Assembly (NCBI GenBank): GCA_903931945.1
Contig: CAIZEI010000202.1
Coordinates: forward strand, 1-64,000
Direction: 5' to 3'
Source: an uncultured Hyphomicrobiales bacterium
GTDB lineage: Bacteria; Pseudomonadota; Alphaproteobacteria; Rhizobiales; Beijerinckiaceae
Length of the DNA: 64,000 nucleotides
A model generated the notes under the pieces. That model saw only the letters and a list, made by a program, of their open reading frames with translations. It searched no databases and was not told the DNA's origin. Below are positions 38,232-46,821 of the stretch, piece after piece. Position 1 is the stretch's first letter, and each line of letters starts with the position of its first letter. Position numbers and translations under genes: made by a program.

Positions 38232-38636
38232 TCATCCACGATCGCCAAGCGCAAATTTTTTCTTCACCGCCTGCACAAACGCTCCGGCCTGCTCAACCGA
38301 CCATACCGCGTCCCCAACACTGACGGAATCGCCGCTGTCATCGGCCAACAGACGAAGAGACTGCACCCTGTTCAAATTGCCGCCATGCTCGGCGTCAAGC
38401 ATCCTGGTGCGCACAAGATGCTGCCCGAACATCGCGGTCAACCCGTTATGCGTTTTGACTGGAGAATCGGATAGTTCCATGCCCGCCGCGCGTAGCGCTG
38501 CATGCGCGGCGTCAAACATCGCGTAGTAGGCGCGGTTGCAAGCGCCGTCGGTATCGCCTGCGCTTAATAACAAACGCGCGCCGGATAAGGCCGTCTCCGC
38601 CTTGCTGATGTAACCTGATGGCGTGAATGCGGTCAC
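38232..38636 (-). CDS. HEPN-domain protein (putative toxin of a HEPN/MNT pair)
   Basis: A 134 aa alpha-helical HEPN protein. The core helix is CNRAYYAMFDAAHAAL, similar to UPF0332/HEPN proteins in which the pattern R-x4-6-H forms the RNase or AMP-acceptor site. Here the residue after AYYAMF is Asp42 rather than His, and the nearest His is His45. It starts at a GTG that overlaps the stop codon of the recombinase-MNT gene (GTGA), so it is translated with it. HEPN and MNT genes next to each other form type VII-like toxin-antitoxin pairs. The WGR remnant lies just downstream. Confidence 0.8.
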   Translation of the reverse strand: MTAFTPSGYISKAETALSGARLLLSAGDTDGACNRAYYAMFDAAHAALRAAGMELSDSPVKTHNGLTAMFGQHLVRTRMLDAEHGGNLNRVQSLRLLADDSGDSVSVGDAVWSVEQAGAFVQAVKKKFALGDRG

Positions 38637-39547
38637 AGGTGGACGCCTTCACGCAAAATGTTCTTGATCAAGGCCGGATTGCTGAATGTTTCCGGTCGCT
38701 CGATCTCGTCCCGCCACAATGGCAAAGCTTGAACCATCACGCCGGTCTCCATCATCACATCAAAGGCAATGCCAGCCATGTCCCTCACGGCTGCCGAGCG
38801 ACCGCCATGCTCGCCATCGAGAACAATGGCAATATCGGCGTCGCTTTCCGAAGTGTGTGTGTTTCGCGCGCGACTGCCAAACAAAATTGCCTCGCGCACG
38901 GGATAACGGCCTTCAAGATGGCGCAGGAAGGAACGAGCCGCGCGTTCGGTTTCAGAATCGAGCGCAGGTCTTGCGGACGCTGTTACAGGCGTCGCCTTTT
39001 CCGCCAGCCGTGAAACCGTGCTCTGGCTGATATTGAATTGCCGCGCCAGGTCGGCTTGCGTCGCCGCGCCGTCGGCAAGGGCTGTCAGCGCCTCACGCTT
39101 CTGGTGCGGCGTGAGCTTGGGTGGCCGCCCCATTCGGACGCCCCGCGCGATCGCCCGTTCGCGGCCTTCGCTGGTGCGAGCGCGGATAAGCTCGCGCTCG
39201 AACTCGGCCAGCCCGCAAAGCACCGTGAGCATCAGACCTCCGCGCGGCGTCGTGGTGTCCGCCCAGCTTTCGCCAAGCGACCGGAATCCGGCGCCGGCCT
39301 TCGCTATTGTATCGAGGATGTTCAAGAGGTCGCGCGTGGATCGCGCCAGCCGGTCAAGGCGGGTGACAAGCAAAGTGTCGCCCGGCTCAAGAGCCTTGAT
39401 CGCCCGCCCCAGTTCGCGCCTATCGGTCCTGGCTCCGCGCGCCGTTTCGCGGAATACGTGCGCGGCTCCGACCGCCGTCAACGCTGCGACCTGAGCGTCG
39501 TTCGTCTGTCCGTCGGCGCTTACTCTCGCATAGCCATAAATCGCCAT
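38633..39547 (-). CDS. Fusion of serine recombinase (resolvase/invertase) and MNT nucleotidyltransferase
   Basis: A 304 aa protein with two normally separate parts. Residues 1-140 are a serine-recombinase catalytic domain: YARVS with Ser10, DRLARS with Arg66 and Arg69, and GLAEFERELI. Residues 145-182 are the resolvase helix-turn-helix (TQADLARQFNISQSTVSRL). After a linker (about 183-205), residues 206-304 form a minimal nucleotidyltransferase: GSRAR (224-228) and SDADIAI with Asp236/Asp238. This MNT domain is the usual antitoxin partner of HEPN toxins, and the HEPN gene follows with a 4 bp overlap. The reading frame is continuous, with no sign of a stop between the parts. Recombination target is unknown. 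Confidence 0.88.
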   Translation of the reverse strand: MAIYGYARVSADGQTNDAQVAALTAVGAAHVFRETARGARTDRRELGRAIKALEPGDTLLVTRLDRLARSTRDLLNILDTIAKAGAGFRSLGESWADTTTPRGGLMLTVLCGLAEFERELIRARTSEGRERAIARGVRMGRPPKLTPHQKREALTALADGAATQADLARQFNISQSTVSRLAEKATPVTASARPALDSETERAARSFLRHLEGRYPVREAILFGSRARNTHTSESDADIAIVLDGEHGGRSAAVRDMAGIAFDVMMETGVMVQALPLWRDEIERPETFSNPALIKNILREGVHL

Positions 39548-39684: not shown

Positions 39685-41202
39685 CTAGCTGCGCGGCAAC
39701 GCCGGAGGCGGGCCTGCGCCGCGTCGCGCGTATTTTGGCAGGCTGACGAGCGCGCGCAGCCCTGCGTCGAAATCGGGGTCGAGCGTCATGGCGCCGCCAT
39801 GCAGGTCTGCGATTTTCCGGCATTCGGCCAGTCCCATGCCTTCGCCCGGGATCGACGCCGGCGCATTAAGCCGTTCGAAGAAGTGAAACGCGCGGCGGCG
39901 CAAATGCGGCGGCACGCCTGGCCCATCATCGGTGATGCGGGTCAAAACGCCCTGCGCTTCCTCGTAGCAGTCGATCATGATGTTCGATCCTGCGCCGGCG
40001 TATTTGATCGCATTGTCGATCAGGCGGCGGAACAGGCCGGACACCAGCGTCAGATCGGCCTCGACGCTGAGCGTTTCGCGGATCACCAGATTGACGCGGC
40101 TTTGCGACAGCGCGTCCCGCAGCTCTGTGGCCGCAGCCTTCACGGCGTCGCCAATGTCGAATTTTGAAAGAGCGATCTCGCGTTCGGACAAGCGCATGTA
40201 GCGATCCAGCGCGGCCATCATGCGGTCGATCCGGTCGACGCAGGAGCGGATTTGCGTCAGATAGTCCTGGCTGCGGGCATCCAGACCGGCCATGTTCGAA
40301 TCCAGCAGAAATCGTGAAAAAAAATCGATCTGCCGCAGCGGCGCGCGTAAATCGTCGGCCACAGCCCGTCCCAGATTGTCCATTTCGGCCGAGAGCTTGT
40401 GCAGGTCCTCGACCCGCGCGCGCAGATTTTCCGCCTTGCGCATGGCGTCGGTGACATCCTCGCAAAACAGGATCGTTCCTGCGACCTGATGGTCGGCGCC
40501 GCGCCAGGGCGCCTGCGCCAGACGCTTCCAGACCGCGCGACCGCGGAAGCTGGATTTCTCGATCTGCGTTGAAGGCACGCCGCCGTCCATCGCAAAGCGC
40601 AAGCGTGCGGCGACATGGGGCCATGTCAGCGGCGAAGCGGTTTCGACGCCGGGCTCCGCGACAAAGGGGTCTCCGTGCTCTTCCTTCCAGCGCTCGGATG
40701 TCAAAACGACCTGAAGATCCGCGTCGAGCATGGCCACGGCGGCGGGGACGTGGCGGACGAACAGCGCCATCATTTCAGCCTGTTCGGCGATCCTGGCCTG
40801 CTGTTCGGCAATCTTCTCCTCAAGCAGGCGTTTTTCGCGCAAACCTTGCGTTGCAGCCCAATGGTCGAACACCCGTTCGGACGCCGACCGCGACAGGGCG
40901 ACGAATTGTTCTGTGGCGTCCATCCAGATCACGTCGATATCGATCGGCGCCTGATCGATGCCGCCGATCGAAAGGCCGGCGAGCGACAGCGGGCCCCCGC
41001 TGGCCCTGACATCGGCAATGGCTTGCGTCATGCCGGAAAATACGGCGGAGTCTTCGATGGGTCGTCCCGGCGCGGGCGCCCAGGAGCTCGCTGAACCCGC
41101 CACAGAAATCACTGTTCCGTCGGCGGCAAACACACATGTTCCCAGAATTCCGCGTTCGTAGAACGCATTGAGCAGGGAGGCGTTTGCGGGACTGGCGGTC
41201 AT
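39685..41202 (-). CDS. Sensor histidine-kinase-like protein lacking the phospho-acceptor His
   Basis: A 505 aa soluble protein with an N-terminal PAS-like segment, a central coiled coil (about 120-145), a second PAS segment (about 146-255), a dimerisation helix pair and an HATPase domain. The H-box reads AVADDLRAPLRQ where family members have S-H-D-L-R, so the phospho-acceptor position (283) is Asp. The N-box (LIDNAIKYA), G1 (DDGPGV) and G2 (GEGMGLAECRK) are intact, so ATP may still bind. It lies 49 bp after the small-GTPase gene in the same operon. It may act as a pseudokinase or scaffold. No response regulator is nearby. Confidence 0.83.
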   Translation of the reverse strand: MTASPANASLLNAFYERGILGTCVFAADGTVISVAGSASSWAPAPGRPIEDSAVFSGMTQAIADVRASGGPLSLAGLSIGGIDQAPIDIDVIWMDATEQFVALSRSASERVFDHWAATQGLREKRLLEEKIAEQQARIAEQAEMMALFVRHVPAAVAMLDADLQVVLTSERWKEEHGDPFVAEPGVETASPLTWPHVAARLRFAMDGGVPSTQIEKSSFRGRAVWKRLAQAPWRGADHQVAGTILFCEDVTDAMRKAENLRARVEDLHKLSAEMDNLGRAVADDLRAPLRQIDFFSRFLLDSNMAGLDARSQDYLTQIRSCVDRIDRMMAALDRYMRLSEREIALSKFDIGDAVKAAATELRDALSQSRVNLVIRETLSVEADLTLVSGLFRRLIDNAIKYAGAGSNIMIDCYEEAQGVLTRITDDGPGVPPHLRRRAFHFFERLNAPASIPGEGMGLAECRKIADLHGGAMTLDPDFDAGLRALVSLPKYARRGAGPPPALPRS

Positions 41203-41251
41203 TCCGGTTTCCGGGCGCTACGTGGGTCAGGTTCCCCCGCCCGCAAAAACA

Positions 41252-41749
41252 TCAAAGCCCCCGGCGCCATATGGCGGCGCCGAGGGATGCAAACATTTCG
41301 CTCACCCCGGCCCCGGTGAGAGCGCTCGTGATCAGCGCCGGTCGACCGGCTGTGAGAACCTGCGGACTGTCAACGACGAGGTCGGCCTTGTTGATGGCGC
41401 AAGCGACAGGACGCCCGGGAAAGCGCTCCTCAAAGGTTTCGGCAAGCTGCCGCATGTGTTCGATGCTGGCGCGCCGGGTGGCGTCCGAAACAATGACGGC
41501 TCCAGCCGCTCCGAGCACGTAGCTGGTGCGGAACAGGGCCTGGCCGAAATCGCCGTCCGTATCCCACAGCACAAGCCGCATGACTTCGGAATTGCAATCG
41601 TCGGGCAGAGTGATCTCGTGGGTTAACACATTGACGCCAACGGTTGTCTTGTAATCAGTCTCGAAGCGATCGAGAGTCAGCCGCCTCGATAGCGATGTCT
41701 TGCCAACGCCGATGGCGCCAAGCAGCATGATCTTTGCAGAACGGGTCAT
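41252..41749 (-). CDS. Ras/Rab-like small GTPase
   Basis: A 165 aa single-domain GTPase. G1 is GAIGVGKTS (11-19), the switch I Thr is in KTTVGVN, G3 is DTDG in LWDTDGDFG (63-66) and G4 is NKAD (120-123). The final SAL resembles G5. Length and motif spacing are those of bacterial Ras/Rab/Arf-like proteins. The residue after DTDG is Asp, where Ras has Gln at the catalytic position. Its start overlaps the stop of the OmpA-like gene by 4 bp. Bacterial GTPases of this group are typically encoded beside Roadblock-type regulators, which the upstream gene appears to contain. Confidence 0.88.
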   Translation of the reverse strand: MTRSAKIMLLGAIGVGKTSLSRRLTLDRFETDYKTTVGVNVLTHEITLPDDCNSEVMRLVLWDTDGDFGQALFRTSYVLGAAGAVIVSDATRRASIEHMRQLAETFEERFPGRPVACAINKADLVVDSPQVLTAGRPALITSALTGAGVSEMFASLGAAIWRRGL

Positions 41750-43536
41750 GGCTTGATTTCTCCCGCGCCGGCAAGTTCGAACGCCACGCGGCGATTGCGC
41801 TTCCGCACGCTGGGCGCGGACGGAGCGATCGGGTTCGTTGCGGCGCGACCGACACTGACCAGCCTGTCACGCGACACGCCGCGCGCGACCAGCAGTTCTA
41901 TCACGCTGTCAGCCCGTTGGCTGGAAACGCGTTTATTTTTCTGCAGCGAACCAAGATCGTCCGCGTAGCCGACAACGCGCAGCGACTCGCTGCTTTGTTG
42001 CAGCAATGCGGCGATCGCGTCGAGCAGCTGGTCCGCCTCTGGCGTCAGGATCGGCGCGTCCGCATCGAATGGGATAAAAAAACCATTGATGAGATCGGCG
42101 AGTCTCGCGCGTGGCGTGTTGGCGCGCGCCTCGGCGGCGGCAATCCTGCCCGTCGCCTCCGCCAGCTGTTTCTGCAAGGCTGCAATTTCAGCTTTCTGAG
42201 CTTGCGACGACCGGGCCTGCGAGTCCTGCATATCGGCCAGCGCCGATGCGCTGGCGCTGGACGTCCCGAGGGCGTCAATATTTGCCTCGAGCAACGCAAG
42301 TCGGGGCGCAAGACTTGAGATCGCTGCTTTCTGCGGATCCATTTCCGCTGCGAGGGAAGCCTCCGTGGCGATCACTGCGACCCGTGAGGCGAGGCTATAA
42401 TTCCCGGCTGCCGCGCGCAGCGCGGCCATGGCCGCCTCGACGTCCGATGTGGTGGGCGCGAGGCCGCGCAATTCGACGCTCGCCTTCGGGTGGTCGATCA
42501 GGATCGAAAGTGGATAGGCCGCGAGCCCGGTCCTGGTTTCGATAGTGCTTTCGAGCGCCGCGTGAAGCTGATGTTCGCGCCACCCGCGCAGACCGGTGCG
42601 TACTGCGAACGCCAGCGCCGCCAGCGCCAGCAATCCTATGACAACCCGCATGGGCCAACCCAGCCGCCTGGGTTTGGCGGGCGACCGGCGCATCAACGCG
42701 GCCATGATGAAATCGCCAAAAACCGCGTCGTTCGCAATGCCGTTCTGGTTGAATTGGTCCAGCCAGGCGTAACAATCCTGATCAAACAGGGCCTTTTGCG
42801 CGGCGCGCAGCGGCGCCGTGAATTCGCAGGCGAAGATGTGCGTGGGCGATGCGCGCACGTGAAAATCGCGCCCGCCAAAATCCAGCGTGCGCAGATCGCC
42901 GCCGCCGCCGCCCAGCGCATCACGGGCAAAGCCCGTCAACGCCGCCAGCAGGCCGCTGATGAGATCGCCTTTTTCTTCAGGCAGCCCGTCCGCGCGCCAG
43001 GACGCGAGCAATTCGCCGCTGTCGCGTTCGAGAAACAGCGCGCGCGTCAGGCGCGGCTGGCCAGACCCGGCCAACGCCAGTTCGCCAATCGGGCGTCCGG
43101 TCATCCGCGCCTTGAATCTCAGGATCCAGCGATCCAGAGAGGTCAGCGCGTCAAGACGCTCATTCATTGCGGCCATCATGTCGCGGATAGCATTTGTGAC
43201 AGCCGCAACCACAAGCTGGCCGGTGAGCGGGTAAAGCGCCTCGACCATCATGTCTCTGGAATTTTTGATTTCGTTCTGGATCGCCGCAACCACTACGGGA
43301 GCAATCGCCTGCGCGAGTTCCCGATGCCGGGCGACTTCTGCGCGCTGCAGCGCCTCGACCAGAATTTCGGCCGTCGCCGCCTCAAGGCTCTGGGCGTTGC
43401 CGACCCTTTTGTCGAGCGCGCCGACAGAGGTCTCCACCGCGTCAAGCCGCGCCGACTCCCGCTGAAACAGAAGCGTCCTGAGCTGCCCGAGCCCATCCGA
43501 CCCCTCGTTCGCCGGCTTCAGAGGCGACTGCAACAT
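41746..43536 (-). CDS. Inner-membrane protein with Roadblock-like region and C-terminal BON/OmpA-like domains
   Basis: A 596 aa protein with several regions in order. Residues 1-145 form a long helical/coiled-coil region. Residues about 160-245 have a Roadblock/LC7-like pattern (ALFLERDSGELLASW, a helix, then HIFACEFTAPLR). One membrane helix follows at 297-313. Then come a BON-like segment (about 330-385), a coiled coil (about 400-460) and an OmpA/MotB-like peptidoglycan-binding domain (IPFDADAPILTPEADQLLDAIA, SQRADSVIELLVARGV, RKRNRRVAFEL). It would link a cytoplasmic GTPase-regulating part to the cell wall. It sits between the coiled-coil gene and the GTPase gene. The Roadblock assignment is by eye only. 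Confidence 0.75.
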   Translation of the reverse strand: MLQSPLKPANEGSDGLGQLRTLLFQRESARLDAVETSVGALDKRVGNAQSLEAATAEILVEALQRAEVARHRELAQAIAPVVVAAIQNEIKNSRDMMVEALYPLTGQLVVAAVTNAIRDMMAAMNERLDALTSLDRWILRFKARMTGRPIGELALAGSGQPRLTRALFLERDSGELLASWRADGLPEEKGDLISGLLAALTGFARDALGGGGGDLRTLDFGGRDFHVRASPTHIFACEFTAPLRAAQKALFDQDCYAWLDQFNQNGIANDAVFGDFIMAALMRRSPAKPRRLGWPMRVVIGLLALAALAFAVRTGLRGWREHQLHAALESTIETRTGLAAYPLSILIDHPKASVELRGLAPTTSDVEAAMAALRAAAGNYSLASRVAVIATEASLAAEMDPQKAAISSLAPRLALLEANIDALGTSSASASALADMQDSQARSSQAQKAEIAALQKQLAEATGRIAAAEARANTPRARLADLINGFFIPFDADAPILTPEADQLLDAIAALLQQSSESLRVVGYADDLGSLQKNKRVSSQRADSVIELLVARGVSRDRLVSVGRAATNPIAPSAPSVRKRNRRVAFELAGAGEIKP

Positions 43537-43538
43537 TG

Positions 43539-43901
43539 CTATTTCCTGCCGGGTCCCTCAGCGAGCTTGCTGACATGCGCGCCAAGATCGGCAATGGCCA
43601 GTCCAATTGCCGCGATGGTCGTGGAATGCCGGCGCTCCGTTTCCACCGCCATCTGATCCATCCGCGCTTCAACCGCTGCAAAGCGTTCCAGCATTTCACG
43701 CCGGAGCGTGTCAATTGTCTGGTTCAATTCGGCGTCGCGCTGTTCATTGCTGCGCTGCGTATGCCCAAACAGCAGTTCTCGCACCTGATCAATCGTGGGA
43801 TCGACGGGCATGGGTCCGTTTTTTTCCATATTCAAATCGTCCTTGTGTTCCAAAAGCGCGGCGCGCCGCGCCGGATGCGTTTTTTTAGCGGCATTGCTCA
43901 T
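43539..43901 (-). CDS. Coiled-coil protein of unknown function, first gene of the GTPase operon
   Basis: A 120 aa protein starting at the ATG at 43901, with GGGAG eight bases upstream. It has a basic N-terminus (KKTHPARRAALLEH), a Pro/Asp segment and a helical C-terminal half (RDAELNQTIDTLRREMLERFAAVEARMDQMA) typical of a short coiled coil. No transmembrane segment is seen. It ends 2 bp before the OmpA-like gene, so it belongs to the operon. I do not recognise the family. The frame is open to 43952 on weaker starts. Confidence 0.65.
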   Translation of the reverse strand: MSNAAKKTHPARRAALLEHKDDLNMEKNGPMPVDPTIDQVRELLFGHTQRSNEQRDAELNQTIDTLRREMLERFAAVEARMDQMAVETERRHSTTIAAIGLAIADLGAHVSKLAEGPGRK

Positions 43902-44024
43902 CGGTAAAACTCCCGGTTGCAATTTCTTATCCGTTTCTTGCCGTAAGGCCAATAGCAGGGCTTGACCCGGATGCGCGTATCGGATTGTTCGCTTTCAGTA
44001 AGCTTAATTTGCAAGAGGCCGCGC

Positions 44025-44594
44025 GTGACGCAGAAACCGGATCAACCACCGCCTGTTCCATTATGGGCCATTTACCGGGTTTTCTTCGAGATCGGGATAT
44101 TGAGCTTCGGCGGTGGCCTGGTGAGCTGGATTCACCGCGAAACAGTGACGAAGCGCAACTGGATCGCGCAGGAGGAGTTTCTCTCCGGCGTTGCGCTGGG
44201 GCAAATCCTGCCGGGCGTCAACTCCACCAATGTCGGCATTTTCGTGGGCCAGCGCCTGCGCGGCGCAGCAGGCGCAGCGACAGCATTGACCGCCATGCTG
44301 ACCGGGCCTTTCTTCGGCGTGCTGTTGGCAGCGATGGCCTACCGCTGGCTGCTGGCGCTCCCCGGCTTCGGCGCCGTGGTCGCCGGCGTCGCCGCCGCCG
44401 CCATCGGAATGCTGCTGCGCATGGGGCTTGAGGCGAGCCGCACGGCGGCGCGCGGGCCGGTCTCGATCCTCGTTATAGCGGTCACTTTTATCGCTGTAGG
44501 CGTGCTGCGGTGGCCGATGCTGGCGGTTGTTGGCGCTATGGCGCCGCTCAGCATCGCCGCCTGCTGGCCGCGCGCAAATGATATGGCGTCCTGA
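44025..44594 (+). CDS. chrA: Chromate transporter family protein, N-terminal half protein
   Basis: A membrane protein of about 190 aa corresponding to one half of CHR-family transporters. Hallmarks are YRVFFEIGILSFGGGLVSWIHRE, RNWIAQEEFLSGVALGQILPGVNSTN and later hydrophobic helices. In the short-chain CHR type two such half-proteins are encoded in tandem and act together. The GTG at 44025 has AGAGG upstream; an ATG at 43962 is an alternative. The second half gene follows with overlap. The physiological substrate may be chromate or another oxyanion. Confidence 0.82.
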   Translation: MTQKPDQPPPVPLWAIYRVFFEIGILSFGGGLVSWIHRETVTKRNWIAQEEFLSGVALGQILPGVNSTNVGIFVGQRLRGAAGAATALTAMLTGPFFGVLLAAMAYRWLLALPGFGAVVAGVAAAAIGMLLRMGLEASRTAARGPVSILVIAVTFIAVGVLRWPMLAVVGAMAPLSIAACWPRANDMAS

Positions 44595-45141
44595 GATGCG
44601 CGATAACATCTATTTCGATCTCATTGTATTGCTTGCGCCGCTGTCGCTGGCCGCCGTGGGCGGCGCGACGGGCCTTTATGCGCCCTTCCAGCACGAGATG
44701 GTGGAGCTGCGACATTGGGTCACGCCCCGCGAATTTTTCGATTTGTTTGCAGTCGCGCGGCTCGCGCCCGGCCCCAGTTCCATGCTGGCGCCGATGATCG
44801 CGTTCAAATTTGCAGGCTTCGCCGCTGCTCTGGTGGCTGCTTTGGCGCTCTATCTGCCCTCTTCGGCGCTGGTCTATGCCGTATCCCTGGTGTGGTCGCG
44901 TTATCGCGACCGGCCCTGGCGCAAGGCGGTGGAGCAGGGGCTCGCGCCTGTTGCTGCGGGCCTCGTGCTGGCGGGCGTGCTGAGCCTGTTGCGCGTGGTC
45001 GATGGCGGGCCGATTGCCTGGGCGACGGTTATCGCCGCCGCCGCTCTGTTGATCTGGAAGCCGAAGCTGCACCCGTTGCCTCTGCTGGGCGCGAGCGCCG
45101 CGATTTTTCTGGTCGCGCATTTTCTGGGCGCGCCGGTGTGA
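44578..45141 (+). CDS. Chromate transporter family protein, C-terminal half protein
   Basis: The partner of the preceding half-transporter, about 187 aa with five to six membrane helices. It shows LSLAAVGGATGLYAPFQHEMV, WVTPREFFDLFAVARLAPGPSSM and APMIAFKFAGF, the second-half CHR signatures. The ATG at 44578 overlaps the end of the first gene; an ATG at 44596 is also possible. Its last 113 bp overlap the 3' end of prmB on the other strand, which is unusually long for a convergent pair. Confidence 0.82.
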   Translation: MIWRPEMRDNIYFDLIVLLAPLSLAAVGGATGLYAPFQHEMVELRHWVTPREFFDLFAVARLAPGPSSMLAPMIAFKFAGFAAALVAALALYLPSSALVYAVSLVWSRYRDRPWRKAVEQGLAPVAAGLVLAGVLSLLRVVDGGPIAWATVIAAAALLIWKPKLHPLPLLGASAAIFLVAHFLGAPV

Positions 45142-46122: not shown

Positions 46123-46551
46123 TCAGATCACTGTCAGGTGTTTTCGCCCTTGCTTGACGGCATCGACTGACAATCGTCGATCCAGGGTCGCCAGCTTGCC
46201 ATTCTTCGACGCAGCAAGCGCCAGCAGGCAGGAATCGGTTACCTGACCCGATGTCAACAGTTTTTGGCTGTCCAGAAACGTGCTGCTTCGCGCGCAGATG
46301 TCGTCGGGCCAGAAGACATGGCCGGGCAGCGCTGTCAGCGCAACCAGAAGCGGAATTGCCGCTGCCGGCGAGCCCGTCGAATTTGGATATTTCGGATTTC
46401 CGACAATGCGGATCAGTCCGTTTTCAGTGACGGGGCAGGTTGCCCAGTTCTGACGACCCTCAAGCGCAAACCAGTCATGCGCGGCGTCATGATTGACATG
46501 CGCGGGATCGATCAAGGCGATCAGGACATTGACATCGAGCAGATAGGTCAA
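46123..46551 (-). CDS. vapC: VapC-like PIN-domain toxin
   Basis: A 142 aa PIN-domain protein of the TA_PIN group that includes Rhizobial VapC proteins. It has Asp in YLLDVNVLIALID, VTENGLIRI, VTDSCLLALAA and LATLDRRL as the acidic metal site. It starts at a TTG that overlaps the antitoxin stop (TTGA), so translation is coupled. The length and motifs are complete. It is convergent with nothing; prmB follows downstream on the same strand 72 bp beyond. Confidence 0.87.
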   Translation of the reverse strand: MTYLLDVNVLIALIDPAHVNHDAAHDWFALEGRQNWATCPVTENGLIRIVGNPKYPNSTGSPAAAIPLLVALTALPGHVFWPDDICARSSTFLDSQKLLTSGQVTDSCLLALAASKNGKLATLDRRLSVDAVKQGRKHLTVI

Positions 46552-46775
46552 GGCTGTTCATCGCGCAGATCGTTGACGAGATCGAGCGTTACGGGAATGC
46601 CCGTCGCGCGCTGCGCGAGCAGGGGCACGCCGTTACGCGATCCCGTTGCGGCGGGTTTGCGCAGGCCGGTTCTGGCGAGATCCGACATAACCTCGCCAAT
46701 TGTTTTGCCCCTGTCGCGCGCGATGGCGCGCGCCGCCATCAGCACATCGTCGGCCAGATCGATCGTGGTTCGCAC
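46548..46775 (-). CDS. vapB: VapB-like ribbon-helix-helix antitoxin
   Basis: A 75 aa antitoxin starting with the ribbon-helix-helix pattern VRTTIDLADDVLMAARAIA and a second helix KTIGEVMSDLARTGL, followed by an unstructured toxin-binding tail. The GTG at 46775 has TGGAGA at good spacing; an earlier codon at 46793 would lie inside a heptamer repeat tract. It is followed by the overlapping PIN toxin gene. The repeats just upstream may affect its expression. Confidence 0.8.
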   Translation of the reverse strand: MRTTIDLADDVLMAARAIARDRGKTIGEVMSDLARTGLRKPAATGSRNGVPLLAQRATGIPVTLDLVNDLRDEQP

Positions 46776-46786
46776 AATACATCTCC

Positions 46787-46821
46787 ACATCAAACATCAA
46801 ACATCAAACATTAAACATCAA
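46787..46821. repeat. Five tandem heptamers ACATCAA upstream of vapBC
   Basis: Five head-to-tail 7-bp units, four identical and one with a single C-to-T change, occupy 46787-46821. They lie 12 bp before the vapB start codon, in its leader or promoter. The surrounding DNA is GC-rich, which makes the tract stand out. Confidence 0.9.

Follow-up and report, generated by a model that had tools for sequence, protein, structure and literature searches.

A Group 1 Rup-type GTPase locus encoding a predicted longin-like membrane protein and a His-less kinase in an uncultured Hyphomicrobiales bacterium

Organization and conservation of the locus

The 64,000-nucleotide stretch of DNA analyzed here (the window; positions 1 to 64,000 of contig CAIZEI010000202.1, assembly GCA_903931945.1) stems from an uncultured Hyphomicrobiales bacterium of the family Beijerinckiaceae and carries, on its minus strand, four consecutive genes that encode a small GTPase of the Rup type and its putative partners. 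In the order of transcription these genes are designated D, C, B and A. Gene D (43539..43901) is a 120-residue open reading frame (ORF) with a product that was judged by eye to be coiled-coil-like. Gene C (41746..43536) encodes a protein of 596 residues, comprising a helical region, a longin/Roadblock-like domain, a transmembrane (TM) segment, a linker and an OmpA-like domain, of which the first two would be cytoplasmic and the last periplasmic. Gene B (41252..41749) encodes a Ras/Rab-like GTPase of 165 residues, with a G3 motif (DTDGD) that lacks the catalytic glutamine, and gene A (39685..41202) a 505-residue protein consisting of an N-terminal region shared with other proteins encoded at this position, a PAS_4 domain, HisKA-like helices without the phospho-acceptor histidine and a HATPase_c domain.

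The four genes are closely spaced, with 2 bp between D and C, a 4-bp overlap (ATGA) between C and B and 49 bp between B and A, exactly as stated in an initial annotation of this DNA, which had described a compact four-gene operon. The spacing agrees with that description. The conserved core, however, consists of D, C and B only, and a strong stem-loop with a weak T tail is located at the end of B (41258..41286, minus strand). This element is a consensus match only and a possible site of attenuation ahead of A. The scan that yielded it found 10 terminator-like sites versus 4.8 (standard deviation 2.2) in shuffled sequence, and no promoter-like sites versus 0.9. Because of this stem-loop, the co-transcription of A with B may not be constant, and it is not certain that the four genes form a single operon.

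Relatives of C were found at E < 1e-60, a threshold at which more than the OmpA-like end is matched, in 21 of the 149 genomes of the family, including that of the window, and they also occur in other families of the order. Across the phylum, 51 out of 398 genomes contain a match to a profile of the N-terminal 300 residues, one of them being marginal (G752, 8e-4). No relative of this region was found among 72,556 plasmid records at E 1e-5. A second, weaker copy of C, in which portions of the domain region and the OmpA end are present, occurs in two genomes of the family (G100:C47 and G071:C40).

The gene neighborhood was compared in three sets of 40, 80 and 20 loci, of which the last is phylum-wide and the first two overlap in genomes, so that their counts are not additive. 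The set of 80, kept from 108 relatives found in one scan, includes Bradyrhizobium, Mesorhizobium, Rhodoblastus, Methylocystis, Hyphomicrobium and Pelagibius as well as uncultured Rhizobiales, which stand nearest to the window. C and B are adjacent on the same strand in 34/40, 74/80 and 18/20 loci, and a gene matching a profile of D homologs is found upstream of C in 38/40, 75/80 and 20/20. All three genes occur together in 32/40, 71/80 and 18/20 loci, which bears out the expectation that the set would be conserved across genera. Five of the six loci without B in the set of 80 stop at a contig edge, and in the 18 complete loci outside the order D-C-B is mostly followed by another gene. A Mesorhizobium loti strain carries the same genes (locus L146), with B and C being 48% and 38% identical to those of the window, respectively.

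The small GTPase B

Protein B contains a complete set of GTPase motifs (G1 GAIGVGKT, G2 Thr36, G3 DTDGD, G4 NKAD and G5 SA) and matches the Pfam family Ras (9e-19). In a comparison with solved structures, the best 60 of 567 matches are nearly all Rab/Ypt proteins. The G1 motif, the G2 threonine, DxxG, NKxD and SA are retained almost without exception among 106 distinct B sequences. The G3 motif can be read in 105 of these, the remaining one being cut by a contig end, and its Asp (WDTDGD in the window) is present in all 105. The position following the G3 glycine is never Gln in these sequences; it is occupied by D (73), E (14), N (10), S (3), I (2), G, K or A (1 each). The absence of the G3 glutamine is the signature of the Group 1 Rup GTPases, for which, in the available text of the original description, the glutamine was expected to be supplied by a GTPase-activating protein (GAP) (Wuichet and Søgaard-Andersen 2014; PMC4316618). 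As B itself has no G3 glutamine, its hydrolysis of GTP should depend on a partner. Taken together, the G3 Asp and the Rab-like best matches identify B, at the level of sequence, as a GTPase of the Rup rather than the MglA type.

The membrane protein C

Residues 160-286 of C (42679..43059, minus strand) are predicted to form a longin/Roadblock-like domain with the element order β-β-α-β-β-β-α-α (E-E-H-E-E-E-H-H according to DSSP). All 50 structural matches listed for the model are Roadblock or longin proteins, either by their title or by the fold that we take some of the matched subunits to have. Most are parts of GTPase or trafficking complexes, and no title among the 50 names a PAS or GAF sensor. 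The top matches are longin platforms from eukaryotes and Asgard archaea, namely TRAPP Bet5/Trs23, Mon1-Ccz1, Ragulator and GATOR1.

The longin domain is defined by the lack of an N-terminal helix and by an extra C-terminal helix, according to the available text of PMC10933270. The model of C, which is a prediction and not a solved structure, fits this definition in its order of elements. Directly ahead of the first strand, where Roadblock/LC7 domains have an N-terminal helix, there is only a short helix (residues 150-156) with a pLDDT of about 65. MglB chains align with the model only from chain residue 25-27 onward, leaving their first helix unmatched, and end at model residue 264-267, while the longin matches mostly extend to residue 280-290. 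The domain thus models as Roadblock/longin-type, with an order of elements that is longin-like and not MglB-like. The family Robl_LC7 has no Pfam match in C, nor in any of the 11 candidates scored in the same genome, and searches of Pfam, NCBIfam and PDB sequences yielded nothing useful for the N-terminal region of C.

The domain is followed by a single predicted TM helix (residues 294-316; 42589..42657, minus strand) with a Kyte-Doolittle value of 2.21 at 298-316 and basic residues on its N-terminal side. A 19-residue hydrophobic peak above 1.6 is present in all 37 aligned C proteins, including that of the window. The C-terminal OmpA-like domain (residues 490-582; 41791..42069, minus strand; Pfam OmpA, 6e-17) contains Asp526 and Arg541, which we take to be the peptidoglycan-binding pair of such domains; these are D in 36/37 and R in 37/37 of the aligned proteins. 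The OmpA-like end of C probably grips the cell wall outside.

The kinase-like protein A and other fourth genes

Protein A has a PAS_4 domain (residues 150-253; 40444..40755, minus strand; 2.6e-9) and a HATPase_c domain (residues 390-490; 39733..40035, minus strand; 2.5e-15) in which the N, G1 and G2 boxes are kept. Its HisKA region remains just below the Pfam cut-off (26.4 versus 26.9 bits), and the position of the phospho-acceptor His is occupied by Asp283 (40354..40356, minus strand). Kinases encoded at this position were compared in a set of 24 out of 26 rows, from which two opposite-strand rows, both with the His, had been dropped. Six members, including A, have D, N, D, E, N and K at this position, and all 18 others have H. 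In a maximum-likelihood tree, the six His-less kinases are separated from the rest by a branch with 100/100 support and lie nested among the His-bearing ones, so that one change suffices. The tree is midpoint-rooted and carries a long-branch warning elsewhere, above all for L079. The ATP-site residues N397, G427, G429, G455 and G457 are kept in 24/24 kinases, although the five other His-less kinases are only 41-65% identical to A. It seems that the histidine was lost once and that the residue subsequently drifted while the ATP motifs persisted. Since the ATP site outlasted the His, A most likely works via ATP-dependent conformation and protein contact instead of phosphotransfer.

The nature of the fourth gene varies between loci. 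A scan of 54 proteins, consisting of A and 53 of 66 next ORFs (13 were dropped as the same genome was already present), identified HATPase_c in 24, Guanylate_cyc in 12, GGDEF in 3 and EAL in 3, with 15 containing none among the families listed. In six loci (L208, L210, L215, L223, L225 and L226) the output gene encodes a class III adenylate/guanylate cyclase. The N-terminal regions of the fourth-gene proteins align across loci and have a Gln in common, which is Gln119 in A (40846..40848, minus strand). The corresponding column of 31 rows contains Gln (24), R (5), K (1) or E (1), and one of these rows (L212) is not an output protein. Several Hyphomicrobium kinases have a Gln one residue after this column.

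A proposed wall-held platform for the GTPase

Several parts named in the initial annotation have held up, namely a Ras/Rab-like GTPase with all G motifs, an inner-membrane protein with an OmpA-like end and a kinase lacking its His. The comparison with MglA/MglB-type pairs needs correction, as B is of the Rup type. The Roadblock-like region, suggested at about residues 150-250 of C, can be retained as a Roadblock/longin-type model of residues 160-286, but with a longin-like order and without sequence similarity to canonical Roadblock domains.

The reading that we favor, and consider fairly probable, is that of a Group 1 Rup-type GTPase module in which a wall-held C offers a longin platform for the docking of B, and in which A is exchangeable. 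C would cross the inner membrane and hold peptidoglycan with its OmpA-like end, while its cytoplasmic longin-type domain would be the platform to which the Rab-like B docks and at which B might be held, exchanged or driven to hydrolyze GTP. Protein D and the helices near the N-terminus of C could help to form this platform. In this way C may relay the state of the wall or envelope across the membrane to the platform, with A acting as an output or regulator that is replaced elsewhere by a histidine kinase, a GGDEF-EAL protein or a class III cyclase at the same position. The presence of one match to B and none to Robl_LC7 in the genome of the window was counted in favor of this arrangement.

A number of results weigh against it. 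The first concerns the assignment of the fold, as an hhalign comparison of C residues 150-292 (34 rows) with 19 canonical Roadblock domains, obtained from 19 of 30 loci, gave a probability of 0.3 (E 0.24), which lies within the range of 20 column-shuffled controls (0.0-0.7) and is matched by control profiles of B (0.5) and D (0.7). As this score is no better than that of the shuffles, homology to Roadblock proteins by sequence is rejected, and membership of the superfamily is supported by the fold only. Likewise, longin and Roadblock families are absent among the best 25 of 31 Pfam families found with 34 C homologs. Second, family f31 includes four loci (L081-L083 and L085) in which the GTPase gene lies on the opposite strand, at a distance of 0.7-0.9 kb. 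Third, the link with the fourth gene is loose: a stem-loop separates B from A in the window, the Gln119 column is Gln in 24/31 rows and not in all, and 47 of the 74 B-carrying loci in the set of 80 have no same-strand ORF of at least 250 residues next to B, so that A is not a constant part of the module. Finally, the interface between B and C is a putative one.

The lack of a sequence link to Roadblock would also suit a domain that is a more general PAS-like relative, dimerizing or binding a ligand without contacting the GTPase, in which case B would act on A or on another target. Longin and Roadblock domains do fall into a broad PAS/GAF-like group, as stated in the available text of PMC3521125 and PMC4917890. 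Nevertheless, such a domain is unlikely given that the 50 listed matches are all of the Roadblock/longin kind, and that the GTPase gene adjoins C far more constantly than the output gene does. To about the same degree, it is improbable that A represents a decaying kinase gene that is separate from a working D-C-B unit and simply happens to lie downstream of it. This would account for the drift of residue 283, for the stem-loop at the end of B and for the Bradyrhizobium, Mesorhizobium and Rhodoblastus loci in which D-C-B has no adjacent kinase-like gene. However, the ATP-site motifs are intact in all six His-less kinases despite their divergence, and all six share the position, the N-terminal region and an open frame.

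A four-protein system akin to the actinobacterial conservons is considerably less probable still. Such a system also combines a GTPase, a kinase-like protein, a small-fold regulator and a protein of unknown function, and the analogy was drawn by the authors of the 2014 study themselves (PMC4316618, available text). However, its GTPase belongs to another family, no OmpA anchor figures in the conservon sets as described in the available text, and CvnA8 autophosphorylates at His183, a residue without counterpart in A (PMC13343842, available text). Membership is therefore rejected, while the analogy is kept. The weakest candidate, a polarity system of the MglA/MglB type in which a Roadblock domain like that of MglB is fused to a wall anchor, is highly improbable and is rejected on the G3 Asp, which MglA lacks and B has (105/105 readable sequences), together with the Rab-like best matches of B, the unmatched first helix and early end of the MglB alignments, the missing sequence link to Roadblock and the 0/11 result for Robl_LC7.

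Neighboring genes

Upstream of gene D and divergent from it lies a chromate transporter gene (43962-45141, plus strand), and the next ORF looks by eye like its other half. On the other side, at 38232-39547 (minus strand), a serine resolvase with an HTH_7 domain carries a fused nucleotidyltransferase domain (304 residues) and overlaps a HEPN gene, forming a HEPN/MNT-like pair in which the MNT component is attached to a recombinase. Coverage of this fusion protein reaches 80% in no more than 7 of the plasmid records that match it, which number at least 5000, and two full-length matches (72%) are in Sphingobium and Rhizorhabdus. A PIN-domain protein and a small upstream partner without a Pfam match, presumably a VapBC-like pair, are encoded at 46123-46793 (minus strand).

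Comparison with known systems

The closest known counterpart is the Group 1 Rup neighborhood. According to the available text of the 2014 study, these GTPases are very similar to Rab, Ran, Ras and Rho, one is carried by M. loti, and their neighborhood comprises a coiled-coil gene, a gene for a domain of unknown function (DUF) joined to a TM segment and an OmpA domain, and a histidine kinase or GGDEF-EAL gene, the Rup clade not being coupled to MglB homologs (PMC4316618). The window combines a GTPase without G3 Gln with genes for a coiled-coil-like protein, a DUF-TM-OmpA protein and an output protein. Because of this match, the G3 signature and the M. loti locus with the same genes, the locus is, by its sequence features, of the Group 1 Rup kind, and the wall-anchored assembly, which the initial annotation presented as a different one, had already been described. 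The outputs also have an invariant Gln in their N-terminal region in that text, to which the Gln119 column here (24/31) may correspond. The two accounts differ in that the DUF has no assignment in the 2014 text, whereas here it models longin-like, and in that the outputs there are GGDEF-EAL proteins or histidine kinases, whereas here class III cyclases also occur and the kinase is His-less. The longin-like fold beside a Rup GTPase, the cyclase outputs (not in the available 2014 text) and the His-less clade are thus what is added. The latter would provide a naturally occurring example in which a histidine kinase is retained for a use other than phosphotransfer. Naming of the Rup partner as longin/Roadblock was not found in the open-licence literature, subscription journals not being covered. 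The available text of one review places the PAS/GAF superfamily, longins included, in every domain of life, and its table lists a pooled 'Longin/Roadblock' entry as present in bacteria, which speaks against a bacterial longin being entirely new (PMC4917890).

With MglA/MglB the module shares a bacterial small GTPase and, as modeled, a partner from the Roadblock superfamily. It differs in its Rup-type GTPase, in the longin-like order of the partner and in the anchoring of this partner in the membrane and probably the wall; moreover, the G3 Asp that B retains is replaced by Thr in Myxococcus MglA. The conservons (CvnA-D) likewise unite a kinase-like protein, a Roadblock-fold protein and a GTPase in one operon, but with an MglA-family GTPase and a canonical Roadblock protein, and as CvnA8 autophosphorylates and A has no His, the kinases differ as well. 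The OmpA-like wall anchors MotB, Pal and YiaD have only the C-terminal OmpA-like domain in common with C.

The longin platforms of eukaryotes and Asgard archaea share the longin/Roadblock fold with C and partner Rab- or Rag-type GTPases; C differs in being bacterial and, as predicted, membrane- and wall-anchored, and in that no Pfam longin appears among the best 25 of its 31 families. A bolder proposal, which we regard as doubtful, is that Group 1 Rup loci, whose GTPases are said to be the closest prokaryotic counterparts of eukaryotic Rab, Ras and Rho, represent a genuine bacterial longin-Rab-type pair outside eukaryotes and Asgard archaea, possibly a source of theirs. This pair would occur in alphaproteobacteria and further classes, and here it would be tied to the wall and signal, in the clade of the window, via a kinase without self-phosphorylation. 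The GAP of the Rup GTPases is not known according to the available text of the 2014 study (PMC4316618). If the platform reading is correct, the longin-type domain of C would be a candidate for this missing partner, and a pair of longin and Rab-like proteins in bacteria would bear on the origin of eukaryotic trafficking switches: B resembles the switches that direct traffic in human cells, and the modeled fold of C resembles their controllers.
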